DNA from: a virus
Strand: one strand, 5' to 3'
DNA length: 25,231 nt
Virus record (IMG/VR): IMGVR_UViG_3300031351_000489
Coordinates: 1-25,231 of that record
In this document: positions 3,923 through 25,231 of the stretch, one piece after another
How positions within the stretch are numbered: the stretch's first letter is position 1
Layout: each line of letters begins with the position of its first letter
Made by a program: the position numbers and the translations under genes
The notes under the pieces: model-generated
What the model was told of the DNA's origin: nothing
The model's database searches: none
What the model saw: only the letters and a program-made list of their open reading frames with translations

Positions 3923-5005
3923 ATGAGTATATCTTTAGCAGAAGCAAGTAAACTCTCTACCGATATCCTTCTTAAGGGGATCATAGAGACTATAATCAAG
4001 GACAGCCCTATACTGCAGGAGCTGCCCTTTATTCAGATTGTAGGTAACAGCCTTAAGTACAACCGTGAGAAGACGTTGCCTACCGTTGGGTGGTATGCAC
4101 CTGTATCGGGTAACTGGACAACTTCAGAGCCAGAGTTCGAGCAGGTAACTGCTACCCTTCAGATCCTTGGCGGAGACGCCGACGTCGACAATTTCCTTAA
4201 GTCCACCAGGAGTAATGTTCAGGACCTCGAGGTTGCCGTCATCGAGCAGAAAGCCAAGGCGGTCCAGCACGAGTTCGAGAACGCCTTCCTTAACGGGTCG
4301 GGTGCCAGTGAACAGCCCTCGGGGTTGTATGTCCTGCTTTCGGACACAGCCTGGGTAGCCGATACCGTCACAGAGGTGGGTGATATCGTTATCCCGACCG
4401 AAGGCCTGGAGAACGGCTTCCGGTATGAATGCACGGCGTCAGCCGGCGATAAAAAGACTCATGCCACTACCGAGCCTACCTGGCCAACCCAGGAGGGAGC
4501 CACCGTCGTTGATGACCAGGTAACGTGGACGTGCAAGTACGGCCACCACCTGGGAACGGGAGCCAACGGTGCCACGTTGAGCCTTAACAATCTGGATAAG
4601 CTCATTGACCTTGTCAGGGGCGGCAAGCCCGACATGCTCTTGATGAGCAAGAGGAGCCGGAGGAAGCTCCAGTCCCTTATCAGGGCGTCAGGTACAGTCC
4701 TCGAGACCCGACCAGGGCTGTTCATGGAGCAGATCCAGATGTATAACGGCATCAGGATAGCCGTCTCCGATTGGATCAAGGACAACTACACCGTCGGCAC
4801 TTCCACGGGAGTTTGCTCGGCTATCTTCGCCTTCCAGATGGGCGAGGGTGGCGTGTGCGGGCTATCGAGCCCCGAGATGCTGCAGGTGGAACGGCTTGGC
4901 TCACTGGAGACCAAGGACGCCACCAGGACGAGGGTGAAATGGTATGTGTCGCTTGCCCTCTTTTCCAATGTTAAAGCGGCCATGATGACAGGGGTGAAGG
5001 ACTGA
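3923..5005 (+). CDS. Major capsid protein, HK97-type, with inserted domain
   Basis: A 360-aa major head protein. The N-terminal arm and E-loop region (residues 1-130, including LPTVGWYAPVSGNW) and the later segment around residues 220-350 (LDKLIDLVRGGKPDMLLMSK, then the IRIAVSDW region) resemble HK97-fold capsid proteins that bind a scaffold. Between them, residues about 142-210 form an extra module with a TTEPTWPTQEGATVVDD core, a small beta-sandwich-like repeat often found in tail and decoration proteins. It begins 2 bp after the scaffold stop. Several hundred copies would build the shell. A hairpin pair follows the gene, as is common for this highly expressed protein. Confidence 0.9.
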   Translation: MSISLAEASKLSTDILLKGIIETIIKDSPILQELPFIQIVGNSLKYNREKTLPTVGWYAPVSGNWTTSEPEFEQVTATLQILGGDADVDNFLKSTRSNVQDLEVAVIEQKAKAVQHEFENAFLNGSGASEQPSGLYVLLSDTAWVADTVTEVGDIVIPTEGLENGFRYECTASAGDKKTHATTEPTWPTQEGATVVDDQVTWTCKYGHHLGTGANGATLSLNNLDKLIDLVRGGKPDMLLMSKRSRRKLQSLIRASGTVLETRPGLFMEQIQMYNGIRIAVSDWIKDNYTVGTSTGVCSAIFAFQMGEGGVCGLSSPEMLQVERLGSLETKDATRTRVKWYVSLALFSNVKAAMMTGVKD

Positions 5006-5712: not shown

Positions 5713-6528
5713 ATGTTGCATCTCGGCATTCTGAAGACCTTCGACAGCGTGAACCACAAGGCGGGAGTCCAGTTAGCGGGCTCGCTAACCACCTACCTGG
5801 ATGATATCGCCGTTGCCACAAACATCGCACCGGAGGCGATGAGCGTCGGCAACTATGTCCTGATAGCCATTCCCGAGGGAAATCCCCGGGACGCCTGCGT
5901 CGTGGCTTCCTGGCCAGCAGGCAACGCAGGGATCACGGACCATGGAGAGCTCAGCGGTCTAGCCGACGATGATCATACCCAGTATCTCAATATCGCCAGG
6001 CATGACCTTACAGCTCGGCATCCTTTAGGAACGGTAGTCCCCCATGAGTCAGCCCTCAATAACATTGGCAACGTCAACGCCCCGTCACCTTCAGATGACC
6101 AGGCTCTTGCCTGGGATGCCGCTACCTCTAAATGGATTCCTCAGACCCTTGGTGGTGGAGGAGGGGGAGGCACTACCAGTATCACCTTTGTTATAGATGG
6201 TGCGGGTTCAACGATCACCACAGGACAGAAAGGTCACCTGGAAATACCGTTCGCCTGCACTATCCAACGAGTAACCATGCTGGCTGATAAGTCAGGATCA
6301 ATCGTCGTGGATATCTGGAAGGACACCTATGCCAACTTTCCGCCAACCAGTGCCGACTCGATAACGGCGTCAGCTCCCCCAACGATATCCTCAGCTCAGA
6401 AGTCTCAGGATTCCACCCTTACGGGTTGGACAAAGTCCATATCCTCGGGTGACATCCTGGCTTTTAACGTCAACTCATGCAGCACGATAACCAGGGTAAC
6501 CATTAGCTTGAAAGTGGACAGAACATAA
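5713..6528 (+). CDS. Phage tail/fibre protein with carbohydrate-binding-like C terminus
   Basis: A 271-aa structural protein. Residues 1-70 (LKTFDSVNHKAGVQLAGS, then GNYVLIAIPE) look like a small OB-fold domain found at the start of phage baseplate or fibre proteins. Residues 72-95 carry the fibre-type motif TDHGELSGLADDDHTQYLN. A seven-glycine hinge (147-153) then leads into a beta-sandwich-like domain (155-271) with GHLEIPFACTIQRVTMLAD, a pattern common in receptor-binding proteins. It probably belongs to the adsorption apparatus. No ribosome site precedes ATG 5713 because the gap is a heptamer repeat. The stop overlaps the next start by 1 bp. Confidence 0.75.
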   Translation: MLHLGILKTFDSVNHKAGVQLAGSLTTYLDDIAVATNIAPEAMSVGNYVLIAIPEGNPRDACVVASWPAGNAGITDHGELSGLADDDHTQYLNIARHDLTARHPLGTVVPHESALNNIGNVNAPSPSDDQALAWDAATSKWIPQTLGGGGGGGTTSITFVIDGAGSTITTGQKGHLEIPFACTIQRVTMLADKSGSIVVDIWKDTYANFPPTSADSITASAPPTISSAQKSQDSTLTGWTKSISSGDILAFNVNSCSTITRVTISLKVDRT

Positions 6529-7397
6529 TGAGAGAGAAGCTAATCAAAGCCAACCAGGCCGAAAAGGAATACTTGAAAGCCAGGAGGGGTAAGTGCGACG
6601 ACGCCCTGGCAGCGGTTGAGGAAATCTTCTTTGCCAAACTGCGTGAGGCTGGCTTCCAGTCCGTTGATGATTACTACGACAATGTCCGTAACTATGGCCA
6701 CCGCTGGAGAACACTAACCTTTGGAAGGTACAACACTGCGGACCAGATAACCTACGGAATAGACGAAGCTTATGCCACCGGGAACGACATTATCGCCTAC
6801 ACCATCTTCGACCACACAATGGCTGTGCTTCCAGACGTCAAAGACGCAGAAAGCCTGGTAGACGTGGACTATTGTCAGAACCATGGCGTAGAAATCGTTT
6901 CACACGGGGCAGGAGAAACTGGATGCTATGTAGCAGAGGCAGGAAATGTAGGAGTGCTCCTTGTGCTTCATAGACCCTGCTATGCCCGAGCTATGGAATT
7001 GGAATTGAAGAAGGTTATCCAGAATGTTCTCTTGAATCACTATGGCGTCACAACTTACCTGGATAAAAACGAAATTATGACCAGGCACTTCCCGCAGCAT
7101 CCCGACGGCGTCAAGATCTGGGGTGATGCCCAGGCCGACATCGGCAGAGTTAGCATGGCAGTGGGAGGATTGACGTTAGAATTTCACAAAGAAGAAGCCG
7201 AACGCATATTGAAGCTCAGGCCAGATCATCCCACCCTGAAAGAACCACACGGACTCAATCACCTGCTTGGCTATAAGATCAATCCAGGTCAATGCCTTAT
7301 ATTCATTATAGAGGAGTGGCTCAAACAAACCGAGAGCCAAGTCACAGATAGGAAATGGCGAACGAGATTTTCAGACCAACTGCGAACGGCGACCTAA
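6528..7397 (+). CDS. Phage protein resembling the lipoate/biotin ligase (LplA/BPL) fold
   Basis: A 289-aa protein in the tail module, unlike its structural neighbours. Residues 108-150 (VDVDYCQNHGVEIVSHGAGE, then a hydrophobic strand) follow the order of lipoate ligases, where VNLEYC-type text precedes an RRxxGGGAVYH substrate loop; here the Arg pair is replaced by SH. Residues 193-219 (DGVKIWGDAQ, then a VGGLTLEF strand) match the ligase DGxKIxGxAQ motif with K196 as the candidate essential lysine. The N-terminal 75 residues are helical and extra. It might modify a protein, bind a cofactor, or use the fold structurally. The fold assignment is by motif only, and loss of the Arg pair argues against normal lipoate activation. 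Confidence 0.5.
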   Translation: MREKLIKANQAEKEYLKARRGKCDDALAAVEEIFFAKLREAGFQSVDDYYDNVRNYGHRWRTLTFGRYNTADQITYGIDEAYATGNDIIAYTIFDHTMAVLPDVKDAESLVDVDYCQNHGVEIVSHGAGETGCYVAEAGNVGVLLVLHRPCYARAMELELKKVIQNVLLNHYGVTTYLDKNEIMTRHFPQHPDGVKIWGDAQADIGRVSMAVGGLTLEFHKEEAERILKLRPDHPTLKEPHGLNHLLGYKINPGQCLIFIIEEWLKQTESQVTDRKWRTRFSDQLRTAT

Positions 7398-7861
7398 CCG
7401 AGCTTGAGGGCGTCGGGCTGGAAAACTGGGAAGCAGTCAACGACGTAAAACCCGATGGATATGGCACCTTTATTCGCAGCACTAGCATCAACCTGCAAAG
7501 GGATTTGTATTTGCACCAAAACCACCAGCAGAGCGGCACTATCCTGCGAGTTGATATCTATTTCCGCACAACGCACCACGGCGAGGCTCTAATAAAGCCC
7601 AACCTGAATATCTACAATGGCCCGCTCATAAATCCAAATCCTGGATACTGGACGACCTCCGTCCAATTCTGGCTAATAAATCCCGAAACACAGCAGCCCT
7701 GGACATGGCAAGACATAGACAACCTCCAGTTCGGCGTCGCTATGTGCAGCCACTCAGCAGGAGGCAAAGGCGGCGGATATGACCCCTCTAACTGCACCCA
7801 GGTCTTCATGCTAGTCCGCACCGAAGGCTTACCAAAAAGCTACGGCTACATCATAACCTAG
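7355..7861 (+). CDS. Phage minor structural / fibre protein
   Basis: A 168-aa beta-rich protein. It starts with MANEIFRPTANGDLTELEG and later has NPETQQPWTWQDIDNLQFGV (about 109-128), a phrase typical of phage minor structural proteins in which a Trp-rich strand precedes a lectin-like sheet ending near a CTQVF strand. It is probably a fibre or decoration component. The gene overlaps the preceding one by 43 bp in another frame and has AGGAAATG at its start. Its stop codon TAG is the first triplet of a heptamer repeat tract (7859-7879). Confidence 0.7.
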   Translation: MANEIFRPTANGDLTELEGVGLENWEAVNDVKPDGYGTFIRSTSINLQRDLYLHQNHQQSGTILRVDIYFRTTHHGEALIKPNLNIYNGPLINPNPGYWTTSVQFWLINPETQQPWTWQDIDNLQFGVAMCSHSAGGKGGGYDPSNCTQVFMLVRTEGLPKSYGYIIT

Positions 7862-8161: not shown

Positions 8162-8182
8162 TAGGACATAGAACATGAGAAC
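8162..8182 (+). repeat. Short heptamer tract at the baseplate gene start
   Basis: TAGGACA (8162), TAGAACA (8169) and the degenerate TGAGAAC (8176) are units of the TAGAAC family. The ATG of the next gene (8175-8177) is formed by the end of the second unit and the start of the third, again without a ribosome site. Confidence 0.6.
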
Positions 8183-10160
8183 CCTAAGCGCCAGCTTAAC
8201 CGCAAGCCAGAAGAAACCCGACCGCCTTCCCTACGTGGAGGCCAAGGTCTACGACTTCGAGCAGGGCATCAAGAGGTTGTCCTGGGAAAGACTCTACACC
8301 GGCTCAGAAGCCGACAACCACCACGGCATCGCCTTCGACGGCCAGGGAAGCATGCACCGTATCAGGGCAGCCTCCAGTAACAAGCTCTATCGCCAGAAGG
8401 TTACCAGCCCTGATGATCAGTCCGACTATTCTCAGTGGACGCAGCTAGCTACGGATTGCCAGGGACCGTGTGCTATCGCAGCCTATGGGGCGAAGGTCTA
8501 CATCTTCTACCGCACCACGGCAAATGTCCTGTGGAAGTACTACAGCCACAACTACGGCCAGGACTGGTCAAATAGCCAGCTCGTAAGCTACGCCGATGTC
8601 CTGTCTATGGCAGCCACATGGTGGGGAACGGGAAACATCGTAGTTTGCTTCTGTTGCAAGGCAGCCGAGCTCAATGCTATCGTCCTGGATTCCTCGGACC
8701 AGTCCACCAGCCAGCACACCCACAGCGAGCCGATAACCCATCCCTTAACAGCCACCTACGGCATCGGAGCCTCTTATACCCCCAACCATATTGACGTTGT
8801 CTTCGCTGCTAAGCAGACGGCGGAGCCGTACAGCTTCATCGCCCTGTACCGCACCGAGCTTGACAGCAACTACGACTGGCTGGCCTTCCAGTATTTCATC
8901 ACAAGCCCCGATGGTGAAGACGTCACCTATGAGTACCCCGATTGCCACAACCCTGCATCTGCCCAGGACTACGAGAACACCCAGCTCACCGCGGTGGAAA
9001 AGTATGCCGGCACAACCGCCTACACGTTACCCCTCACCTGTCACGCCGTCAGAGGCTCAGCCTTCAGCTCCATGGCCTTCACCGAGCCAAAGCCCTTCTT
9101 GAATATAACCTCGAACTTTGGACTTAGAACATCCTCAACATCCGCTTATTGGTGGCTGGAACGCCCCGACGGAGTGTGGAGAGCCGCCAGACCAGCAGGA
9201 ACCCCGTTAGATCTAACCCCCGACATCCTCTCCTTGAACCTAGAACGTAGAACATTGAACGTAGAACTTGATAACAGTTCCGCTCAGTACGCCACACCAC
9301 CCGCAAAGCGAAGCGAAGTGGTCTTGAAGTTGGGCTATAGGACTTCCCAGGGAAACGAAGCGGTGGAGGTGGGGAGGTACTGGATCGACTCTTGGGAATA
9401 TTCCTCTACTCCCAACACATCAACCCTCACCCTGGTTTGCCTGAACGGGCAGGGACTGGCGGAGAAGTGGTCCGCCCGTTTTCAAATGAGGTGGCCCGCT
9501 GATAAGAGAGTGTGGGAGATCATCCAGGAGATTATCTGCAGGTGGGGAATCAACCTTACCAGCCCTGGGGGAGTCCCCAGGAGCTCAGCGGTTGATAACC
9601 TCTATCCCGACTTCACCCTCCAGCCAGGAACCCAGGGAACTCAAGCACTCAACAAACTCTTATCCTTCATACCCGACGCCCTCATCTTCGACGGCAACGA
9701 GGCCTATGTTAAGGACCTCAAAGACGACGAGGCAAGCTCATATTCCTACGGTACAGGCCACGTCATCCTCCAGGGTGAATATGCCGAAGCCGTCCCGTTA
9801 ACCAGGGCAAGAGCCATAGGGAGGGACGGTGAGGATAACCGTATCGTCGAGGACGCCTTCGACTGGCCTAACTTAGAACTCGGTATTGATAACTTAGAAC
9901 AATCTTATGACCCCAACCTTCAATCAGCCGCCAGGGCTCAGGAGAGAGCCGATGCTATCCTGAGAAAGGCGTCATTGCGAGCGGAGCGTGGCGATCTCGT
10001 CGTCCCCACCAATGTCGGTCAGGAGCTCTACGACGTCATCACCGTCACCGATGAGAGGTGCGGGATCTCGTCTAAGAAATACCGGGTACTCGATATCGAG
10101 ACCACCCTCAGCCTTCGTCAGTGGCTCTATCAGCAGAGGTTGACCATTGGAGCCCCGTAA
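8175..10160 (+). CDS. Large tail/baseplate protein: propeller-like N terminus, hub-like C terminus
   Basis: A 661-aa protein. After a short lead (MRTLSASLTASQKKPDRLPY) residues about 40-330 contain repeated beta strands with an Asp-box-like SHNYGQDWS (about 127-135) and other Trp-rich repeats, suggesting a sialidase-type propeller. From about 365 to 661 (EVGRYWIDSWEYS, then WEIIQEIICRWGI) it resembles baseplate hub or tail-tip proteins of the gp27/late-control type. It is likely part of the adsorption tip. Two repeat elements are translated within it: the TAGAAC heptamers as residues 354-365, in the linker between the halves, and an interspersed element at 9971-9999 as residues about 599-608. 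Confidence 0.75.
   Translation: MRTLSASLTASQKKPDRLPYVEAKVYDFEQGIKRLSWERLYTGSEADNHHGIAFDGQGSMHRIRAASSNKLYRQKVTSPDDQSDYSQWTQLATDCQGPCAIAAYGAKVYIFYRTTANVLWKYYSHNYGQDWSNSQLVSYADVLSMAATWWGTGNIVVCFCCKAAELNAIVLDSSDQSTSQHTHSEPITHPLTATYGIGASYTPNHIDVVFAAKQTAEPYSFIALYRTELDSNYDWLAFQYFITSPDGEDVTYEYPDCHNPASAQDYENTQLTAVEKYAGTTAYTLPLTCHAVRGSAFSSMAFTEPKPFLNITSNFGLRTSSTSAYWWLERPDGVWRAARPAGTPLDLTPDILSLNLERRTLNVELDNSSAQYATPPAKRSEVVLKLGYRTSQGNEAVEVGRYWIDSWEYSSTPNTSTLTLVCLNGQGLAEKWSARFQMRWPADKRVWEIIQEIICRWGINLTSPGGVPRSSAVDNLYPDFTLQPGTQGTQALNKLLSFIPDALIFDGNEAYVKDLKDDEASSYSYGTGHVILQGEYAEAVPLTRARAIGRDGEDNRIVEDAFDWPNLELGIDNLEQSYDPNLQSAARAQERADAILRKASLRAERGDLVVPTNVGQELYDVITVTDERCGISSKKYRVLDIETTLSLRQWLYQQRLTIGAP
9111..9131 (+). 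repeat. Heptamer tract inside the baseplate gene
   Basis: TCGAACT (9111), TTGGACT (9118) and TAGAACA (9125) are three in-phase degenerate units of the TAGAAC family lying within coding sequence and read without a stop. Confidence 0.6.
9234..9268 (+). repeat. Five-unit TAGAAC/TTGAAC heptamer tract inside a gene
   Basis: TTGAACC, TAGAACG, TAGAACA, TTGAACG and TAGAACT follow each other without a gap (9234-9268). The frame used avoids the TAG and TGA triplets and gives LNLERRTLNVEL, placed in the linker between the propeller-like and hub-like halves. Confidence 0.9.
9971..9999 (+). repeat. Interspersed GTCATTGCGAGCGGAGCG-type element inside the baseplate gene
   Basis: The segment begins GTCATTGCGAGCGGAGCG and ends GGCGATCTCG, a form I recognise as a dispersed element that occurs between genes in many bacterial genomes. 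Here it is read in frame as part of the hub-like domain (about SLRAERGDLV). Copy number in the host cannot be judged from this window. Confidence 0.55.
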
Positions 10161-10396: not shown

Positions 10397-10521
10397 CACC
10401 CCCTGGATTATTAATACACGGATACAATCACTAGAGATGTTAAAACGATTTAGGGAGAGTCAAACAAGGGAGAAATAAGGAGAGACGAAAGAAAAAGGTG
10501 TACTTCACCCACTTAACCTCA

Positions 10522-10550
10522 TTGACACAGCAGACCCGTAGCAGTACAGT
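10522..10550 (+). promoter_or_regulatory. Sigma70-type promoter for the Ntn-hydrolase gene
   Basis: A perfect -35 TTGACA (10522-10527) and -10 TACAGT (10545-10550) are separated by exactly 17 bp. Transcription would start near 10557, about 40 nt before the ATG at 10599. An own promoter in mid-phage marks the gene as separately expressed cargo. Confidence 0.6.
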
Positions 10551-10598
10551 GTAGCCCAAGTGCCCTAGGATATATCTTTCTGAGCAGGGAAACAGAAT

Positions 10599-11945
10599 AT
10601 GACTACAGAAATTGCCATAATGAATAAGGAGGCTGTTGCTCTCGCGGCAGATAGTGCAGTTACAACAGGCAGAGTCCAAGACAAGATCTTTAATTCTGCC
10701 AACAAACTTTTTCCTCTCGGTAGGGACCACTCTGTAGGAATAATGATCTATCAAAATGCCGACTTTATGGGCATACCTTGGGAATTTCTGATCAAAATCT
10801 ACAGGGATAAGGTGCTGCGACAGAGAAGCTTTAAGACCCTTAAAGCTTATGGTGACAGCTTCATCAGGTTTCTCAACAACCCCAATAGTGCATTTAAGGA
10901 TCTCGTCTCTCAATCAGAGCAAGAAAGATACTTCGGTTTGTTTGTCGACTACCAATTCGACCGCATTGTCGATTACACTATGAAGCAAGCATTCTCCGAG
11001 AGGCACCCCAACCGTGAAGCGCTGCTCACCAAACTCAGAACAACAGCGCAAGCTGCTATACAGGCCGCTCTGGACGTTTCCACAGATAATCTCAAAAACG
11101 ACAAGAAATATCAGTCTATACCAAACAGTTACTTAACAAATGTAGAGCGTAGATATGGAAAGATCACCAGGGAAGCTGCAAAACGAATTTTTGGCAAACC
11201 ACCAATTTCTTTACAAATTTCTCAAGCATTACAAGGTACTATAGACAAAATGGTTATTAATGCATTCGCTGCTCACTACTTGTACCCAGACATGATTTGG
11301 AAAGATTTTACTAACTACTCTGGCGTGGTGATTGCAGGTTTTGGCGAGGACGACAAGTTTCCCTCCCTCGACTCATATAAAGTTGGCGGGGTAGTAGGTG
11401 ACAGGCTTATAAGTGTGAAAGACAACCACTACAAAAGCAACAGAATCACCCCCTCGAACAGAGGTAGGATTTTGACCTTTGCACAGGAAAGAACAATACA
11501 AACATTTTTGACCGGAATCGATCCAACTTATGAAGAAAAGTTAGTCGACTACTTTGAACGAAAAACAAAGGACTTGTCTAAAGGTATTATCGCCAAAGTA
11601 GGTAGCATCGGCAACAAACAAAGGCAAGGGTTACAGAAACAAATAGAGGAGAACATAAAGAAAGCCAAAGACGATTATCAGGGCTACGTATGGAATCTCG
11701 GCTTTGACCATAGCCTTCCAATTGAAGCTTTTATTGTTTCAGTGTTGCCTAAAGGCGAGCTTGCTTCTATGGCTGAGACGCTGGTCAGTTTGGCTTCGTT
11801 TGAGCGTAGGGTTTCTCCAGGAAGGGAAACAGTAGGTGGACCAATAGACGTCGCCGTAATCTCCAAAGTGGATGGATTTATTTGGGTAAAGAAGAAGTCC
11901 TACTTCACGCTAGAAATGAACCCTGACTATTATGAGGGCACATAA
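10599..11945 (+). CDS. Proteasome-like Ntn (N-terminal nucleophile) hydrolase
   Basis: A 448-aa protein whose first 40 residues align with proteasome beta subunits. After Met removal Thr2 would be the catalytic Thr1, EAVALAADSAVT places D18 exactly at the D17 position, and ANKLFPLG puts K36 where beta subunits have the K33-L-F triplet, with a 2-residue insertion. VGIMIYQNADFMG (46-58) fits the following strand with its glycines. At 448 aa it is about twice the length of HslV or Anbu, with a helical middle (about 75-240) and a C-terminal section (about 300-448) of unknown role. It has its own promoter and is more AT-rich than the structural genes, so it is likely horizontally moved cargo. Substrate, oligomer and partner ATPase are unknown; host takeover or defence are inferences. 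Confidence 0.65.
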   Translation: MTTEIAIMNKEAVALAADSAVTTGRVQDKIFNSANKLFPLGRDHSVGIMIYQNADFMGIPWEFLIKIYRDKVLRQRSFKTLKAYGDSFIRFLNNPNSAFKDLVSQSEQERYFGLFVDYQFDRIVDYTMKQAFSERHPNREALLTKLRTTAQAAIQAALDVSTDNLKNDKKYQSIPNSYLTNVERRYGKITREAAKRIFGKPPISLQISQALQGTIDKMVINAFAAHYLYPDMIWKDFTNYSGVVIAGFGEDDKFPSLDSYKVGGVVGDRLISVKDNHYKSNRITPSNRGRILTFAQERTIQTFLTGIDPTYEEKLVDYFERKTKDLSKGIIAKVGSIGNKQRQGLQKQIEENIKKAKDDYQGYVWNLGFDHSLPIEAFIVSVLPKGELASMAETLVSLASFERRVSPGRETVGGPIDVAVISKVDGFIWVKKKSYFTLEMNPDYYEGT

Positions 11946-13347
11946 GGGCAAACGGTTCGCCAGCGATTCGCACCATCCACCAGTAAAAACCCCATAGTCT
12001 CCCATCATCGTGCCAGTCCTGCACCAACCCTAGGAACAGACAACCACCACCCCACCCGAGAACCACCCGAGAGGCGGGAACGGCTACGCCGCCCGCAGGC
12101 TCGCCGATGCCGTGGACGGCTCAAACCGTCGCCGCCACCGCACGGCTCGAAGGTTAGGAATTTATACTATCCACCACCTACCTACCAACCAGCCCAGTTA
12201 ACTATCCCAGGTGTCCCCGGTCCAGTGAATGATTCCATGAACGGTTCTTTCCTTTAGCCGGCGGGGTGACCACTGGCTTCGCGGGCGGGAGGGGGAAGGG
12301 TGCGGGCATCGCCGCCGCCAAAGGTAGCTAGCTCGTCAGCACAGCTCTTCTCCTGGAGGCTCAGGGTAACCGCCTTGAGGCTCGGCGGTGGCTCTGGCCC
12401 GCTGGAGGGACAGTGTCCGCCAAGCTCCGCCAGCGGCACCACCGCCGTCCTTCGTTGGTTCGCAGTCTGCCTCACTTGCCCTGACAAGTGTCGAGCCAGA
12501 GCCCGACTATCACCTCTCGGTGATTAGGCAAACTGCTTACCGGGAACGTCACCGAATACGCAGGGAGCTGTGAGGAAGGGGCAGCTCCGTTAAGGTCGCA
12601 AAGCCATTCTGGAAATTGCTTCCACCTGTCACTGCCTGTGACCACTACCTCCAAGCCACCAATCAATTTGCAGAACCTTCGCTACACTCAGGCGAGTGGC
12701 TTTGCTTCGGTGTGGGAGCGTCCAGCCAGCCGTAAAAAGCCCGCCTGGCTTTTGCGGTAAACCGTCGGCTGTCTGTCCTTAACACACGGTTTCGCTGCAC
12801 CTGCAGACATGGTTCGCTTCACAGAGAAGGTCGCTTCGCTCCGTTTCGGGCGGTGCGAAATCGCTTCGCTTACTTTCTATACAGCTTGCGTCGCTTGCTC
12901 TTCGCATCGCCCTCCAGGTTTCACGGGAACGGAGGGCATAACGGAACGGCTTCGTGGTTCGCTTCGCTCACGGCGGGATGTCCCGCACCCATAAGGTGTT
13001 CTATTGCCTGCTGCTTTCCTATTGTCCACGACCGCATCGTCGGCATCGTAATATGGGTCGCCGATGCTCCGTCGCTTCGCGTTCGGCAAGGGTCACGATT
13101 CTGTGCCCAGAGGCATTGCTTCACGCAAGGGAACCCAACCCTTGCCTTCAGCAACTTTCGTCGGAAAAGAGCAGCCATTTCCTGGAAGGACTCCTTCTGC
13201 TTTTTCTGCCGAAAGCAGAACGGCGTGCGAAGCCCGCCGCCCCTGCTTTTGCTACGGCATCCCTGGCTGGTCCTCAATCACCCGCTCTTTCACCAGAGTG
13301 AAAGCGCCAGCAGGCAATCTGCTGAGTTTAAGTCAGGAGGTGTAGTC
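11946..13347 (+). other. 1.4-kb stretch without credible genes, rich in hairpins and short repeats
   Basis: Open frames here are short, overlap on both strands, and are Arg/Ser/Pro/Gly-rich, so I call no gene. Hairpins include TCGGTGA/TCACCGA (12517-12523 with 12549-12555), AGCCAG/CTGGCT before a TTT (12724-12753), GCGGGA/TCCCGC (12973-12986) and CTGCTTT/AAAGCAG (13197-13218). CGCTTCGCT-type units recur around 12832, 12862, 12958 and 13073. It may hold a structured RNA, an origin, a packaging region or decayed genes. I see no tRNA or CRISPR in it. Confidence 0.6.
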
Positions 13348-13719
13348 ATGTCTCAGTCACACGTTCTCGCTCAGTATCCTTATCTGGCCCCGGGTCTTTG
13401 CGGCGTTCTGGAGTGTCCTCGGCTCTGTGTCAGGTCCCAGCATTGTCCGGCAGGTCAGCGTCGCGCTCGGCGTCTTATGGCAGCTCAGTCTCGGCGTCGG
13501 CTCAATGTGAAGCCCAACCGTCAGCAGCTCCGTGTCTGCAAGCTCATTCAGGACGAAGCCCTGTGTCCTATGCTCTGCAAGCAGTGTGGTGGCTGCTTTC
13601 TGCCACAGCCTCACGATTCAGAGTCACAGCTCAAACGCAAAGCACACAGGCCCCAGTCCGTAATCGGAGCCCTGGTCAGGCTCCGTGAAGATCAACAGGA
13701 AATGAAGGACGTGGCGTAA
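13348..13719 (+). CDS. Cysteine-rich hypothetical phage protein
   Basis: A 123-aa basic protein. ATG 13348 is chosen because AGGAGG (13335-13340) stands 7 bp upstream; the frame is open further upstream but that part reads as non-protein-like. Cys clusters occur near the N terminus (GVLECPRLCVRSQHC) and at about residues 75-84 (CPMLCKQCGGCF), suggesting bound zinc. The end is charged and helical (RLREDQQEMKDV). The TAA overlaps the ATG of the RadC-like gene by one base (13717-13719), implying translational coupling. I recognise no family. A nucleic-acid-binding helper is plausible from context. Confidence 0.6.
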   Translation: MSQSHVLAQYPYLAPGLCGVLECPRLCVRSQHCPAGQRRARRLMAAQSRRRLNVKPNRQQLRVCKLIQDEALCPMLCKQCGGCFLPQPHDSESQLKRKAHRPQSVIGALVRLREDQQEMKDVA

Positions 13720-14135
13720 TGAATGTAGTCAAAGTAACTTACAAGGTATCAGAGAAGCCAGGTCACCGCGTCATCTCGTCACAGGACGCCTACGAATTGC
13801 TCAAACCTCTGTTTAATCCCCTGCAGGAAGAGTTTTACCTTCTTCCCGTGGTCGGTCAGGAGACTATTCCAGAGAAGCTGTTCGTAGGCGGTCTCGGGTC
13901 AGCAAACGTCGACATGAAGCTCATCTTCCACAAGCTCCTCACTAACTACCCCAACTGTGGAAACTTCGTGATCGCTCACAATCACCCGAGCGGACAGCTT
14001 GAGCCTTCCCAGGAGGACAGGCTCCTCACCAAGAACACCAAAGAGGTCGCCAAGCTCTTTGGCTACCACTTGCTCGACCACATCATCTTCGCCAACACGG
14101 GTTACCACAGCTTCGCAGACGAGGCTGAATTTTAA
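13719..14135 (+). CDS. RadC-like JAB/MPN-domain protein
   Basis: A 138-aa protein with the metal-binding JAMM pattern of the RadC family: H87-N-H89-P-S-G, S97 and D100 in HNHPSGQLEPSQED, with E38 in PLQEEFYLL as the partner acid. It lacks the helix-hairpin-helix half of full-length RadC (about 220 aa), like the many single-domain forms on phages and mobile elements. All ligands are present, so a zinc-dependent hydrolase is expected, but the biological role of RadC is unresolved. It is translationally coupled to the Cys-rich gene upstream and leads a run of small phage genes, consistent with a DNA-metabolism or anti-defence module. Confidence 0.85.
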   Translation: MNVVKVTYKVSEKPGHRVISSQDAYELLKPLFNPLQEEFYLLPVVGQETIPEKLFVGGLGSANVDMKLIFHKLLTNYPNCGNFVIAHNHPSGQLEPSQEDRLLTKNTKEVAKLFGYHLLDHIIFANTGYHSFADEAEF

Positions 14136-16609: not shown

Positions 16610-16622
16610 TATAATTGTCTCA
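16610..16622 (+). promoter_or_regulatory. -10 box giving a probable leaderless DUF3800 mRNA
   Basis: TATAAT (16610-16615) ends only 6 bp before ATG 16622, so transcription should start at or next to the A of the start codon. There is no ribosome site. TTACAT, 19 bp upstream of the box, is a weak -35 candidate. Confidence 0.5.
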
Positions 16623-17386
16623 TGGCTTTCAACTGTTATATCGATGAATCAGGCGACGAAGGGATTGACACTGGTGGCACACGCTGGTTTATTCTAGGTG
16701 CAATGATTGTTGCTGACAATGTTGACTTAAAAACTAGCGAAATGATAACTCGGATTAAATTAAAGTTGGGTAAAGACCCCCGAAAACCTTTACACTGGAT
16801 AGCTATTCGTAACCACGACAAGAAACTGTATGTCTGCAGTGAATTACTTACAGAGGACTGGATATTTTCTTGCGTTGCGACGGACAAAACACATCCATTT
16901 ATTCAAACGGCAAAAGGTTTACCAGAAAAATGGAACTTATATTTTTATTCAACTCGTCTATTACTTGAACGTTTGTCTTGGTATGCTCGTGATAATGGCG
17001 GCGAAAAAGCTACTTTAACTTTTGAGAAGCGCACCAATATGGATTACAAGGCATTGAATGAATACCTATCACATTTACGTCGCTGGATACCCCCGCTAGA
17101 GATTCAATGGGATTATCTCAATTGGCAATATCCTGAGATTATTGCAAAAGAGAAGAATCGTATGCTCCAAGCTACTGATTCTGTTTGCGGTGCTCTTAGC
17201 GATGCCCTTGAATATACTCCTTTGGGTAATATAGAGCCGAGGTACATCCTAACTTTGAAAGACAGATTCTACAGAAGGGGAAGTAATCTTTTTAGTTATG
17301 GACTAAAGCTCTTACATATACAAGGGGACAAAAGCGCTATACTAGGCCAACATGGAAATGAATATCCGTGGCTAAATATGATTTGA
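16622..17386 (+). CDS. DUF3800 family protein
   Basis: From ATG 16622 the 254-aa product begins MAFNCYIDESGDEG, the signature of DUF3800 (RNase H-like fold), with D8, E9 and D12 as candidate metal ligands and a following TRWFILGAMIV strand. DUF3800 proteins are widespread on phages, plasmids and defence-rich islands; a nuclease activity is suspected rather than proven. An upstream in-frame extension would run through a terminator and a promoter and is rejected. The gene is clearly AT-rich compared with its flanks, and the GC-rich DNA just after its stop looks like an interrupted older gene, so it was probably acquired as a cassette. Confidence 0.8.
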   Translation: MAFNCYIDESGDEGIDTGGTRWFILGAMIVADNVDLKTSEMITRIKLKLGKDPRKPLHWIAIRNHDKKLYVCSELLTEDWIFSCVATDKTHPFIQTAKGLPEKWNLYFYSTRLLLERLSWYARDNGGEKATLTFEKRTNMDYKALNEYLSHLRRWIPPLEIQWDYLNWQYPEIIAKEKNRMLQATDSVCGALSDALEYTPLGNIEPRYILTLKDRFYRRGSNLFSYGLKLLHIQGDKSAILGQHGNEYPWLNMI

Positions 17387-18000: not shown

Positions 18001-18585
18001 ATGTTTAAGAAACTTGGTATAGGTTTCGGAGTAGCTATCGCTATTGCTGCCATTGTTGTTTGTGCTGCACCACTCAAAACGGTGGCCTACACAGTGATGG
18101 TCGATTATCAGGATACAGAGACCTATTATGTAGATGAGTCTTATGAGGCGCAAGTGGCTGAGCCACTAGACTATCAGGTGGTCGATTCATATGTCGGCGA
18201 AGAAATAATCACTCACGAAGCTAGCACCATCATTGGTGGGATAGGTGAATCTCATGATACTTGGGAAGAGACAATCCCTGTGGCTTGTGTCGTTGTAAAA
18301 AACACAGACACGGTTTCTGGAACATTTACTGTGTCCTTCTCCGTCGCCAACTCTCTCGATGCGTTTTTCCTCACCATACCACTTGATTTAGCCCCTGATG
18401 AAACAAAGACAGCCGAATGCCTTGCTTATGAACTTGGTGATTGGGAATATAGGGTTGCACCGAGCACAAAGACAGTAACAGGCACAGAATACAGACAAGT
18501 AGAAAAGCAAAGAACCGTAACGAAACAGCGTCCTGAAACCCGCTATAAGGAAGTAACCTTGCTTGATTATTTGCTGCACTACTGA
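18001..18585 (+). CDS. Membrane-anchored surface protein, paralogue 1
   Basis: A 194-aa protein with an N-terminal signal anchor (residues 4-24) followed by PLKTVAYTVMVDYQDTE (24-40). The middle is a beta-rich, probably Ig-like domain (about 90-145, VVVKNTDTVSGTFTVSF). The C terminus is Lys/Arg-rich and ends in RYKEVTLLDYLLHY. The gene at 19196 encodes a paralogue with the same ends but a divergent middle. It is expressed from the promoter at 17930-17964 and may form an operon with 18634 (48-bp gap). The function is unknown; the conserved tail could be a docking or sorting tag on the outer face of the membrane. Confidence 0.75.
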   Translation: MFKKLGIGFGVAIAIAAIVVCAAPLKTVAYTVMVDYQDTETYYVDESYEAQVAEPLDYQVVDSYVGEEIITHEASTIIGGIGESHDTWEETIPVACVVVKNTDTVSGTFTVSFSVANSLDAFFLTIPLDLAPDETKTAECLAYELGDWEYRVAPSTKTVTGTEYRQVEKQRTVTKQRPETRYKEVTLLDYLLHY

Positions 18586-19195: not shown

Positions 19196-19696
19196 ATGAA
19201 GATCGGTATAGCTATAGGAGTAATAGTAGTAATCTTAGCTCTCGTTGTTTGCCTTGTTCCTCTTAAGACGGTGGCTTACACCGTGACGGTTGACTATCAG
19301 GATACAGAACCACTTAGCTATAAAGACATGGGGGCAGAGATTGTTAGCACTGGAACTTGCTATGGCTATGATAGCTCTACTGATAGAAACCGCATTTTTG
19401 GCTGGACATATGCTTATGCGGTTGAGTTAAAGAACACAGACGAGATTGCTGGAACATTCACTGTCCAGTTTGAGCATATTTCTGGAGGAGCATCATTCGT
19501 GGGCTCACAATCCATCCATCTAGAGCCTGGCGAGGAAGGTAAAGTACTATCTGACAATGTTAGAGGTTGCAGAGTCTATGAGCAAATCCCTGGAGCAAAG
19601 TATGAGGTTATCCCTGGAGCAAAGACTGTAACAAAACAGCGTCCTGAAACTCGCTATAAGGAAGTAACCTTGCTTGATTATTTGCTACACTACTAA
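19196..19696 (+). CDS. Membrane-anchored surface protein, paralogue 2
   Basis: A 166-aa protein with a signal anchor (residues 3-20), then PLKTVAYTVTVDYQDTE (22-38), a divergent beta-rich middle (AVELKNTDEIAGTFTVQFEH) and a C-terminal tail ending RYKEVTLLDYLLHY, matching the 194-aa protein at 18001. The last 70 bases of both genes are almost identical and differ mainly at silent sites, so the tail is under selection or gene conversion. GAGAGG precedes ATG 19196. It follows the 170-aa gene by 49 bp and probably shares its transcript. Confidence 0.75.
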   Translation: MKIGIAIGVIVVILALVVCLVPLKTVAYTVTVDYQDTEPLSYKDMGAEIVSTGTCYGYDSSTDRNRIFGWTYAYAVELKNTDEIAGTFTVQFEHISGGASFVGSQSIHLEPGEEGKVLSDNVRGCRVYEQIPGAKYEVIPGAKTVTKQRPETRYKEVTLLDYLLHY

Positions 19697-19813: not shown

Positions 19814-20261
19814 ATCGTTTGAATATAAGTTCCCAATGCTCATAAGATATATCTTTCCTAAACTTCCTAAGACAATTCCTGAGTTGCGCAAAGCAGTCGA
19901 CTGAAAGTACATTCATTAAATGCATTCTCCCAGAAAGAGTCCCCGCAAAAATTTCTGCTGTCCGTATCTCGAAAACCTGCGGCAGTTGAATATAAGTATC
20001 GAGCGGGAAAGACTCATGCCAATGTAAAGGTACAAAGAATACGCTCTTTTGCGTGTCACAACCTTCTTGACATCCTTCATATCTTTTCGATTGAGAAGTG
20101 GTTTTCAAAACGAGACAAGGTGAATTGATATCAGCAACATACAAGATTACGAATAGTTTGTCTGCCGCCGAACCATCTTCAAATGGGAAGTTATTGTAGA
20201 GTAGAACTTGCCCTGGTTGTGGACTATGCTGCATCGAGTTACTTTGTCGGCTTGAGGTCAA
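19812..20261 (-). CDS. PemK/MazF-like toxin candidate
   Basis: A 149-aa protein, or 140 aa if it starts at the ATG at 20234 (MQHSPQPGQVLLYNN). PGQVLLYNNFPFEDG followed by a FVILYV strand resembles the PGDIVLVDFPF start of PemK/MazF ribonucleases, and DTYIQLPQVFEIRTAEI resembles the later conserved strand. The long start overlaps the antitoxin gene by 23 bp, which suggests coupled translation. The neighbour is a Panacea-type antitoxin, so this would be its toxin. Toxicity and RNase activity are inferences. It could also be an unrelated SH3-like barrel. Confidence 0.6.
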   Translation of the reverse strand: MTSSRQSNSMQHSPQPGQVLLYNNFPFEDGSAADKLFVILYVADINSPCLVLKTTSQSKRYEGCQEGCDTQKSVFFVPLHWHESFPLDTYIQLPQVFEIRTAEIFAGTLSGRMHLMNVLSVDCFAQLRNCLRKFRKDISYEHWELIFKR

Positions 20262-20820
20262 AGCTATATACGGTTTCCCGATGTTCTTTCAAAGATTCCC
20301 TTGCATCCTCTAGGCTAACTGCAGATTCTTCGGAAATGCTGACTAGATAGTCTATGGGTTTGTTTATGCCCTTCTGCCTTTTTGTAATATCCCAAGGTTG
20401 TTTTGGCAGATGCGTGACTTCAGACATATCGCTTGCCGTAGCCTCTTTATACACAAAAGCCAAAGCTTCAAGCATTTTTATTTCTCTTGGCGTAAACACA
20501 GACAAATCGGGCTTCTCCAAAGCACGAACTTCGACCTCTTTGTAATTTGGTGCAAAATCATCCGTTCTTCGTATCAGCGCGATTTTTCCCTTGAAGTCTT
20601 CTGGCACATTAGCATCTCTTATCTCTAGCCAAAAATCTTTTGGTACAGGACCCTTCTCAAATGTGTGATACTTTAATCCAATAGAGGGATAGCCTGTCTG
20701 GTTAAAATGCATGAAGTCAAGAAAGTAGAGAAGCTTTGAAAGTTTGCCAAGGTTTACCCGTTTTGTGCTACCGGCAAAAAATAGTACAGCGTTCAGAAGT
20801 TTCCTTCTGTAGATATTCAT
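20239..20820 (-). CDS. Panacea (DUF4065/SocA-like) antitoxin
   Basis: A 193-aa protein. ATG 20820 is preferred over an upstream GTG because AGGAGG (20831-20826) stands 5 bp before it. Residues 19-63 (LGKLSKLLYFLDFMHFNQTG, then GLKYHTFEKGPVP) are the Panacea-domain signature of GepA/SocA-like proteins. These domains neutralise many different toxins by direct binding. The partner gene overlaps it downstream, a standard type II toxin-antitoxin order. A C-terminal helical tail (about 150-193) may give toxin specificity. Confidence 0.85.
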   Translation of the reverse strand: MNIYRRKLLNAVLFFAGSTKRVNLGKLSKLLYFLDFMHFNQTGYPSIGLKYHTFEKGPVPKDFWLEIRDANVPEDFKGKIALIRRTDDFAPNYKEVEVRALEKPDLSVFTPREIKMLEALAFVYKEATASDMSEVTHLPKQPWDITKRQKGINKPIDYLVSISEESAVSLEDARESLKEHRETVYSFDLKPTK

Positions 20821-20956
20821 TCCCACCTCCTACAACCCTAATACTATACTATCACTTGTCAACATGTAAGAGCAAAATTGTACTAGTACCCCATCCTTAC
20901 TGAACATTCTGACGAAATGTGCAACACGCCACCCCCAAACTCAGCATATCCCCTAC

Positions 20957-21388: not shown

Positions 21389-24385
21389 ATGGTGCTTTCG
21401 TATGGGAAGGATCTGATTGAAGCTCTCGTACATAAGTACGAAGCCCTCACATATAAAGAGAAGAATAGCTACAACGAAGCTAACACTGTTAACGCATTCA
21501 TCAGGCCCCTTTTTGAGGCTCTTGGGTGGGACTTTTCAACTATAGATGAGGTAGAAGCTGAAAAGACCATTTTAAAAGGCAGGGTAGATTACGTATTTAA
21601 GGTTAAGAAGGTTTCGAAGTTCTGTGTGGAGGTTAAGTCTCTCCGCCATGACTTGACCGATGAAGACAGAGAACAAGCCATTAGCTATGCATACAATAAG
21701 GGTCTGACGTGGGCAATCCTTACGAATTTTGGGCGAACACAAGTCTTCAACGCAGAAGTTAAAAGCGATCTGAAGAGCGCCCAGTTTCTGGATTTACGAT
21801 GCGAAGACTACCTGACTGAGTTTGAAGATCTCTCGTTAGTCTCTAAAGAATCAGCGTTAAGTGACGAGTTAGACAAGAAAGCCGAAAAATATGGCAAGTT
21901 AGCACGTCGAATACCTATCGAGAAGAAACTTTATGAACAATTGGCCAAATGGCGCGCTGACCTATTTAACCAGGTGTATGGGTTCAACAAAAGTATTGGC
22001 ATTACGCTCGATCAAACCGACCAATTGATACAGAAGCTGTTCAGCCGCCTCATATTCATACGTACTGCGGAAGACAGAGGCCTAGCAAGTAACCATCCGC
22101 TGTTAGCGGCTGTTCATCAGTGGGAAACTGAGGGGGGACAACTGCTAGAAAAGGTTATGGCTATATTTCAAGACTTTGCCCACACCTTTGACAGTGAAAT
22201 CTTCCCACTAATGGATCCCTGGCAGCAGATCTGGGTAAATGACCATGTTCTTGCAGAAATCATTAATGGGTTGTACCAAGTCCCAGGGGACTATGCTAAG
22301 TACTATTTCAACATAATCGAACCTGACGTATTAGGGCAAGTGTATGAACAATATCTGGGCTACGTGGCAAAAGCTGTCAAGCCTAAACCACAGATTCAAC
22401 AGACGTTCTTTCCGCCAACTGAGGGGCAAATCGAGATATCTGCAAAGAAAGAAAAACGAAAGAAGGGTGGCATTTATTACACGCCAAAATGGGTAACAGA
22501 CTACATAGTTAGGCAAACCATCATCCGCTACTTTGATGAGCATAGTTATAATGAAATTCTAAACATGAAGATTCTTGATCCTGCTTGTGGCTCTGGCTCA
22601 TTTCTTATCAGGGCTTATGATGAGCTTCTGTCCTACCACGCTAAGGTTAAAAGAAAACCAGTGGCCGAGTTGAGCTGGCAGGAAAGGATAGAGATTCTGA
22701 CTCGGAACATATTTGGGGTAGACCTAGACCCCCAAGCAGTCGAGATAGCCCGTCTGAATCTTCTCATCAGGGCTCTAGCACAAAGGAAATTATTGCCTTC
22801 GCTGGAGCACAACATCCAATGTGGTAATTCTTTGATCTTCGGCAAAGAAGAAGAGCTTGAGAAGTCTCTAGGCAGCAATTTCAAAGAGCTTAAACCATTC
22901 GATTGGGATGTGAGATTTCCTGATATCGTAAATTCGGGAAAATTTGACATCGTTATTGGCAATCCCCCGTACGTAATGGAGCTTCGGGATAATAAGGATA
23001 TTTTCAGGCAACTCAAGGCTACGCCTTTGGGCAGCAAGTATTATGAGCCCAAGATGGACATATTTTATTTCTTTATTGAGCTTGGAATCGATTTACTGAA
23101 ATCCGGCGGCTATCTTGGTTTCATAGTACAACAATATTGGGTTTCACGGGCTCACGCCTCGAAGTTGCGGCGAAAGGTCTTCGATGAGACATGTCCCCTA
23201 GCCTTGGTCGACTTTGGTGAATACCAGGTATTTCGAGATGCCCCGGGGCAGCACAATATGATTACCGTTTTCAAGAAGTCCAAAGACAAGGATGCCAAAA
23301 CGCTGACACTGCAACTTAAAGATGCGGAGGTGAGTGAGCAGGCAATCGCAAGAGCACTGGCTTCTGATGTCCAGGACCAAGGTATCTTTGACGGAAGGAT
23401 TGTAGAAACGCCACAGCTATTTGATGCTAAAACAGATAAGGTCTACGTTATCGAAGATTCTGTCTCACAAATTTTAACCAAGCTGTCATCAGATAGCTTT
23501 AACCTTGATGATACGGAGATTCAGCAAGGGCTAGTCACTCCGCAACATTTTCTTACATCCCAAGCAATTTCGAAACTCGCCAAACCCGAAAGTTACAAAG
23601 CGAATGAAGGCATCTTTGTTCTGAGAAAGGCTGAGGTCAACAAGCTTAAATTAACACAACAAGAGGAAAAGCTCTTGCGACCGTTCCACTACGCCGAGGA
23701 AATGGGCAGCTACTATTACAATCCTGAAGTCGGGCATTACCTCATTTACACACCCATAGAGATAGCGAAGGACATTGAATCCAACCCGAACAAGTATCGA
23801 AATATCAGATCTCACTTGGATAAGTACCAGCCGGTCATAACATCAGACCATAAGCCCTATGGAATACACAGGGCACGACAACCCGAATGGTTTGAAGATC
23901 CCAAAAAGATCATCTGTGTCAGAAAAACCAAGTATCCGAAGTTTGCCGTCGTACCTGAAGCCTGGTATGGAGATCAAGCTGTTCTCATTATCCGACTGAC
24001 AAAGCATACGCAAATCTCACCATATTTTGCGGTGGCAATATTAAACAGCAAGGTTGCTCACTTCTGGCTATTTCAACAAAAGAGACAAGGGAACCAGCTT
24101 CAGGTAGATAAGGAAGTTCTGATTCACTTCCCATTTCCCAGTATTGATTTGTCAAACACCGGGAGTAAGAAATTGTATGATGCCATCGTGACCTTAGCGA
24201 ACAAGGTAGTAAAGCAGAGAAGGGAACTAGAGATTATCAAGAGTAGCGGTGAAGATATATTTGGTGAAAAGGCAAAAGAGCTTCAGGCTGATATTGAGAA
24301 AACCAGGCATGAAATTGACCAGCTTGTTTTTGAGCTATATGGGCTGACTGAAGGGGAAATTAAGCGCATAGAAGGCGCAGCATGA
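21389..24385 (+). CDS. Single-chain Type IIG-like restriction-modification enzyme (Eco57I family)
   Basis: A 998-aa fusion. Residues 25-125 form a PD-(D/E)xK nuclease of the HSDR_N type with D67 (GRVDYVF), E81 and K83 (CVEVKS). Residues about 340-620 are an adenine-N6 methyltransferase with motif I DPACGSGSF (397-405) and motif IV NPPY (525-528). The C-terminal region (about 730-960) resembles the TaqI-like target-recognition domain and is followed by a helical tail. It would methylate one strand of its asymmetric site and cut unmodified DNA using S-adenosylmethionine. All catalytic residues are present. It has its own promoter and no separate methylase or specificity gene nearby. A BREX/DISARM-type partner set is absent. 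Confidence 0.9.
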   Translation: MVLSYGKDLIEALVHKYEALTYKEKNSYNEANTVNAFIRPLFEALGWDFSTIDEVEAEKTILKGRVDYVFKVKKVSKFCVEVKSLRHDLTDEDREQAISYAYNKGLTWAILTNFGRTQVFNAEVKSDLKSAQFLDLRCEDYLTEFEDLSLVSKESALSDELDKKAEKYGKLARRIPIEKKLYEQLAKWRADLFNQVYGFNKSIGITLDQTDQLIQKLFSRLIFIRTAEDRGLASNHPLLAAVHQWETEGGQLLEKVMAIFQDFAHTFDSEIFPLMDPWQQIWVNDHVLAEIINGLYQVPGDYAKYYFNIIEPDVLGQVYEQYLGYVAKAVKPKPQIQQTFFPPTEGQIEISAKKEKRKKGGIYYTPKWVTDYIVRQTIIRYFDEHSYNEILNMKILDPACGSGSFLIRAYDELLSYHAKVKRKPVAELSWQERIEILTRNIFGVDLDPQAVEIARLNLLIRALAQRKLLPSLEHNIQCGNSLIFGKEEELEKSLGSNFKELKPFDWDVRFPDIVNSGKFDIVIGNPPYVMELRDNKDIFRQLKATPLGSKYYEPKMDIFYFFIELGIDLLKSGGYLGFIVQQYWVSRAHASKLRRKVFDETCPLALVDFGEYQVFRDAPGQHNMITVFKKSKDKDAKTLTLQLKDAEVSEQAIARALASDVQDQGIFDGRIVETPQLFDAKTDKVYVIEDSVSQILTKLSSDSFNLDDTEIQQGLVTPQHFLTSQAISKLAKPESYKANEGIFVLRKAEVNKLKLTQQEEKLLRPFHYAEEMGSYYYNPEVGHYLIYTPIEIAKDIESNPNKYRNIRSHLDKYQPVITSDHKPYGIHRARQPEWFEDPKKIICVRKTKYPKFAVVPEAWYGDQAVLIIRLTKHTQISPYFAVAILNSKVAHFWLFQQKRQGNQLQVDKEVLIHFPFPSIDLSNTGSKKLYDAIVTLANKVVKQRRELEIIKSSGEDIFGEKAKELQADIEKTRHEIDQLVFELYGLTEGEIKRIEGAA

Positions 24386-24658: not shown

Positions 24659-25231
24659 TTATCTCTTGAATACCAAGGAGATTATGGGACAGCCCTTGGG
24701 AATTTGGACATCTCGGACTTCTTGAATAATCCCTTTGTCAATTGCGTACCCAGCATCCTTAGTTTTGGCTTCCCTAAAAAGCTTAGCGATTTCCTCCTTA
24801 GTGACACTTGTCTCTTGGCAGATAATATTCCCAATTCGTTTCTGGTCATTCAATATTACATCTAACTTTTCTCGTAAAGGCTTTTCATCAAATCTTTGAC
24901 CCTGAGAAACGCTGAATCCGACACCGTGAAACATGAATGTAGCGTTTGCTGTAGCGTAGCGATTACTGCCAGCAAGGAAGATTACAATGCCGGAAGAACT
25001 CACATCACCCACATTATGAATGGTGAGTTCGAATGGCATTCCTTTTAGCACGTTATAAAGATTTATCCCGTCCCTAACCGTACCACCAGGCGTGGCGAGT
25101 AATAAATAGACACCTTGCACTTTTTGATTTGCACAGTTGGACATGACACTAATAAGGCTCTCTGTTGTGCTGTTATTAATCTCAGCAGAAAATGATACAT
25201 AAACTAGAGGTGCGTTTTCTGGTATATTCAT
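24659..25231 (-). CDS. ClpP-like serine protease (head maturation or host type)
   Basis: A 190-aa protein whose ATG is the last triplet of the window on the minus strand. It follows the ClpP/crotonase fold: LLLATPGGTVRDGINLYNVL (about 43-62), a nucleophile elbow GDVSSSG with S79 aligned to the ClpP serine, MFHGVG with H102, and DAGYAIDKGII (159-169) aligned to the ClpP EAxxxGLID segment. The third catalytic acid is not where expected, so activity is not assured. ClpP-like proteins serve as phage prohead proteases, but this one is far from the head genes and on the other strand. A solitary regulatory or defence-associated protease is equally possible. Confidence 0.8.
   Translation of the reverse strand: MNIPENAPLVYVSFSAEINNSTTESLISVMSNCANQKVQGVYLLLATPGGTVRDGINLYNVLKGMPFELTIHNVGDVSSSGIVIFLAGSNRYATANATFMFHGVGFSVSQGQRFDEKPLREKLDVILNDQKRIGNIICQETSVTKEEIAKLFREAKTKDAGYAIDKGIIQEVRDVQIPKGCPIISLVFKR

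Follow-up and report, generated by a model that had tools for sequence, protein, structure and literature searches.

The protein of 289 residues that this phage encodes between two fibre-like genes is, almost certainly, a diverged member of the LplA catalytic-domain family, as judged from sequence and profile comparisons. We tentatively propose, with a confidence a little short of even, that it is an LplA-derived domain that has retained the ligase lysine, has lost ligation and has been repurposed to serve the neighbouring fibre as a putative partner or modifier. Domains of the LplA/BirA type otherwise act in central metabolism, and a limited literature search found no published description of one in a phage fibre module; if true, the proposal would make these phages of the largely uncultured Dehalococcoidia a concrete example of how virion biology has taken over the fold of a metabolic ligase.

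The window, that is the whole stretch of DNA analysed, is a virus record of 25,231 bases, in which the genes for the terminase, portal, scaffold-like, capsid and adaptor proteins all lie upstream of the LplA-like gene and the tail protein gene lies downstream (Table 1). The open reading frame has exactly the coordinates, strand and length given in a preliminary description of this DNA, and the location within a fibre module that was claimed there is borne out by the fibre-like genes found on both sides.

Table 1. Positions in the window of the LplA-like gene, its segments and its neighbours
Feature	Position	Strand	Remarks
Fibre-like gene, upstream neighbour	5713..6528	+	Stop overlaps the start of the LplA-like gene (TAATG)
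LplA-family protein (assignment almost certain), 289 aa	6528..7397	+	Open reading frame, Pfam, hhalign, genome profile matches
N-terminal helical extension (predicted), residues 1-58	6528..6701	+	Phage family only; 57% identical among homologues
Former substrate/adenylate loop, residues 125-133, SHGAGETGC	6900..6926	+	RRxxGGG lost
K196 codon, counterpart of the invariant LplA lysine	7113..7115	+	Within GVKIWGDAQADIGR
Best-conserved block in the phage family, residues 230-248	7215..7271	+	LRPDHPTLKEPHGLNHLLG
Short fibre-like protein, 168 aa	7355..7861	+	Cassette partner; 43 nt overlap with the LplA-like gene
C-terminal tag of the partner fibre, KSYGYIIT	7835..7858	+	RSYGYVMS, RSHGYVMS in sister phages
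Tail protein	8175..10160	+	Homologue in sister phages sits upstream of the cassette
Second accessory slot	10469..12046	+	Unrelated 448-aa gene here; LplA-like and fibre cassette in L002, L004 and L082
448-aa gene, phrog_5990	10599-11945		E 1.9e-98; unknown function

Family assignment and cellular relatives

The motif order reported in the preliminary description (VDVDYCQNHG, a glycine loop, DGVKIWGDAQ with K196, then VGGLTLEF) is present in the protein, and the LplA-type identity inferred there gains support from Pfam matches of the homologues and from profile comparisons with LplA, BirA and LipB. The top Pfam match of the window protein is the LplA-B_cat model (PF21948; E 0.0058, 17 bits), which is below the cut-off of 27 bits, whereas three homologues from sister phages, 47-48% identical to it, exceed this cut-off with 27.3-29 bits (E 1.2e-6 and 4.1e-6). 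Using hhalign, the profile of the phage proteins was aligned with six cellular LplA with a probability of 96.8% and a score of 72.5, the maximum score obtained with 60 column-shuffled LplA alignments being 22.6. The match to LplA is thus beyond chance, since PF21948 is the top match, the homologues lie above its cut-off and the hhalign score is far above that of any shuffled alignment.

The same phage profile was compared with control alignments. The BirA/BPL biotin ligases, which belong to the same superfamily, gave a weaker match than LplA (43.6, 81.8%), and the phage protein has no visible C-terminal BPL domain. The octanoyl transferases LipB, LipM and LipL also share the fold superfamily with LplA; LipB, the only one of the three compared by profile, scored 19.2, no higher than the shuffles, and an unrelated portal alignment scored 21.0. 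A sequence search of the PDB returned LplA 1vqz as its top match, a weak one (E 0.077) in which the lysine and N-D motifs align. AlphaFold models made with one and with three sequences were of low confidence (pLDDT 39.6 and 49.3), so that the fold searches run on them, which gave no confident match, are uninformative; LplA 5ij6, found at rank 9 (E 1.3) with a low-pLDDT model, is not evidence. Matches to MtrB, myoglobin, DUF7260 and DUF3701 were weak and were judged to be due to chance.

A search with the portal protein collected 80 related phage loci, two of which (L002 and L004) encode LplA-like homologues with 47% identity; a third contig, L082, came from a profile scan, and its protein is the same as that of L004. 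Scans of viral contigs with the single protein and with the alignment recovered only four copies, those of the window, L002, L004 and L082. Phage and plasmid records gave no match of useful significance to the LplA-like protein, PHROGs and PADLOC gave none, and scans with cellular LplA queries retrieved no viral homologue. Of the 51 phage records searched with the Pfam model, four have the LplA-like gene, which makes it a rare accessory.

Relatives of the portal protein occur in 21 genome records labelled Dehalococcoidia, Dehalococcoidales or Chloroflexi, and for this reason the host group of the phage family is probably the Dehalococcoidia. Only 2 of 393 Dehalococcoidia genomes match the phage profile with an E value of at most 0.01: the stronger match, L110, is an LplA whose gene adjoins two GcvH-like (GcvH/LbpA-like) genes, and the other, L111, is weak (E 0.003) with an open reading frame that is BirA-like by eye. 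In the Chloroflexota, 22 of 400 genomes match (best E 1.8e-10), and the ten matches examined of these 22 are all LplA with RR-GGG and nearly all with G-[RK]-K-I-x-G. The best cellular matches are the Chloroflexota LplA of L169, L170 and L110, which have an LplB-like C-terminal domain and have in common with the phage proteins an N-D/E motif, the pattern G-[RK]-K-I-x-G-x-G-A-x-x-I-G and the helix region F-[ND]...A/M-x-R-V-L-K...K. By contrast, the phage proteins lack both RRxxGGGxVYxD and the LplB-like domain and begin with an extra predicted helical segment of 58 residues, absent from the cellular proteins compared. In the tree, the phage proteins are placed on the side of LplA and apart from LipB, on a branch of 3.2 changes that was flagged for possible attraction, and this length means that the donor lineage cannot be named.

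The nearness of Chloroflexota LplA, together with the two GcvH-like carrier genes beside L110, would also fit a host-directed protein, the LplA-like surface of which binds or blocks host lipoate carriers or ligases during infection. Such a protein would be predicted at an early, host-takeover location, but the gene is part of the late structural module, overlaps fibre genes and moves with a fibre gene, and we consider this reading improbable.

Conserved and unconstrained segments

The residues that are invariant in 4/4 phage copies, three of which are mutually 94-100% identical, include G139, N140, N181, E182, K196, I197, G199 and K238. K196, the conservation of which had been singled out beforehand as one of two points on which the assignment could fail, the other being the predicted structure, is kept in every homologue found, aligns with the cellular lysine and lies within the G-x-K-[IV]-x-G feature. 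The dN/dS ratio of 0.18 between the L002 and L004 copies indicates that the LplA-like protein is functional and under purifying selection.

In LplA, the RRxxGGG loop holds the lipoyl-adenylate. The corresponding position is occupied by SHGAGET in the window copy and by ADYTDPH or ADHTDPH in the homologues, so that the loss of the arginine pair noted in the preliminary description stands, but the Ser-His in its place is specific to the window copy, Ala-Asp being found in the homologues. The loop is lost in 4/4 copies. If an insertion confined to the window copy is set aside, no segment of the protein is less conserved, 1/9 residues being identical across the phage copies at positions 125-133 compared with 15/27 in the block around K196 and 14/19 in the block at residues 230-248. 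A signature that is kept by cellular LplA is therefore the segment that the phage family no longer constrains. None of the four phage records has a match to PF10437 (Lip_prot_lig_C, the LplB small domain), nor to the Biotin_lipoyl or GCV_H models of lipoyl, biotin and GcvH acceptor domains.

ATP-dependent lipoate ligation would have been lost, as we infer because the phage copies have neither the lipoyl-adenylate loop, in whose place the sequence is unconstrained, nor the small domain, and no lipoyl acceptor is encoded in the phage records; canonical lipoylation by this protein is unlikely on these sequence features. The missing small domain is weak evidence on this point, since the single-domain LplA of sulfur oxidisers with the Hdr-like pathway is active without it (PMC6067878). 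The lipoate ligases HdLplA and TkLplA, the latter shown to be active, are encoded beside their own LbpA acceptors (PMC6067878); the phage protein is like them in having the catalytic domain alone, a likeness drawn without comparison of the loop sequences, and differs from them in that the phage records have no such co-encoded acceptor. Relatedness to cellular LplA would suit an auxiliary metabolic gene that provides the host with a working lipoate-scavenging ligase, but RRxxGGG is lost in all the phage copies, while the cellular LplA copies examined retain it, and there is no small domain and no acceptor nearby, which makes this explanation very improbable indeed.

A serious rival to a fibre partner, even if on balance rather unlikely, is an acyl ligase or acyltransferase of altered specificity that acts on either a protein of the virion or a carrier of the host and in which Lys196 and the remodelled loop bind a different acid. 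The conservation of K196, N181, E182, G199 and G139-N140 weakens the case for repurposing, because a working acyl-transferring or adenylating enzyme would be expected to show it too, and the purifying selection on the sister copies and the activity of single-domain LplA (PMC6067878) are also in favour of an enzyme. Against it, the substrate loop is not conserved even among the phage copies and the phage records have no acceptor domain. LipB and the amidotransferases need a catalytic cysteine, but the phage copies have no conserved cysteine after the lysine, the sole one common to the window protein and its homologues being C116, upstream of K196.

The fibre cassette and its possible role

The LplA-like gene is followed by the same fibre-like gene in all four copies; relative to the tail gene, this pair is located upstream in the window but downstream in L002, L004 and L082. 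The flanks at the slot edges align at about 81-96%, and the downstream slot of the window is taken by an unrelated gene encoding 448 residues. Since the position differs and the pairing is constant in the four records, the two genes stay paired while the slot changes. The partner fibre has 168 residues in the window and about 397 in the relatives, about 220 residues having been gained between. All the partner fibres end in [RK]S[YH]GY[VI][MI][ST], a pattern found in no other among about 1,500 long plus-strand open reading frames surveyed; as the partner fibres are homologous, this tag represents conservation across a domain gain and not independent recurrence. The partner fibre was also considered as a lipoyl acceptor and rejected, as it has no lipoyl domain and the C-terminal tag of the relatives contains no lysine.

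What the comparisons show is a catalytic domain of the LplA type, preceded by a new, predicted helical extension, which a small branch of the probable Dehalococcoidia phage family carries together with the short fibre as a co-mobile cassette of two genes. According to the proposed repurposing, the LplA-like domain would serve the co-transferred fibre, which it may bind as an assembly factor or as a virion component; alternatively, it may modify the fibre through the retained Lys196 pocket, using a non-lipoyl ligand. One candidate for the place where the two make contact is the conserved tag at the C-terminus of the fibre. The link to the fibre is supported by the start/stop overlap with the upstream gene, by the overlap with the partner gene and by the gene pair remaining together despite the change of slot. 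Classical lipoylation or biotinylation of the virion is disfavoured, because the phage records lack lipoyl, biotin and GcvH acceptor domains. A more specific version, in which an LplA-derived phage enzyme covalently modifies the tail fibre, recognises its C-terminal tag and moves with it as a cassette of modifier and fibre, strikes us as having little probability.

Other features of the phage genomes

The phrog_5990 protein type of 448 residues found in the second slot of the window is also encoded by L035 (10457-11788). The major capsid protein contains an insertion domain (window 4340-4537, capsid residues about 140-205) that recurs in sister phages inside the genes for the adaptor and tail proteins (L015 5992-6165; L030 6249-6422; L034 4709-4936 and 7820-8008), and it appears from these sequences to be a mobile, decoration-like domain. 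Two membrane-anchored proteins of the window (18001-18585 and 19196-19696) have a common C-terminal VTKQRPETRYKEVTLLDYLLHY, recognised by eye, which suggests a duplication. A Type IIG restriction-modification enzyme, Eco57I-like (PADLOC E 4e-105), is encoded at 21389-24385, and the right-hand part of the record also contains genes for a RadC-like JAB protein (13719-14135, +), a DUF3800 protein (16616-17386, +), a SocA/Panacea antitoxin-like protein (20239-20826, -) and a ClpP-like protease (24659-25231, -).
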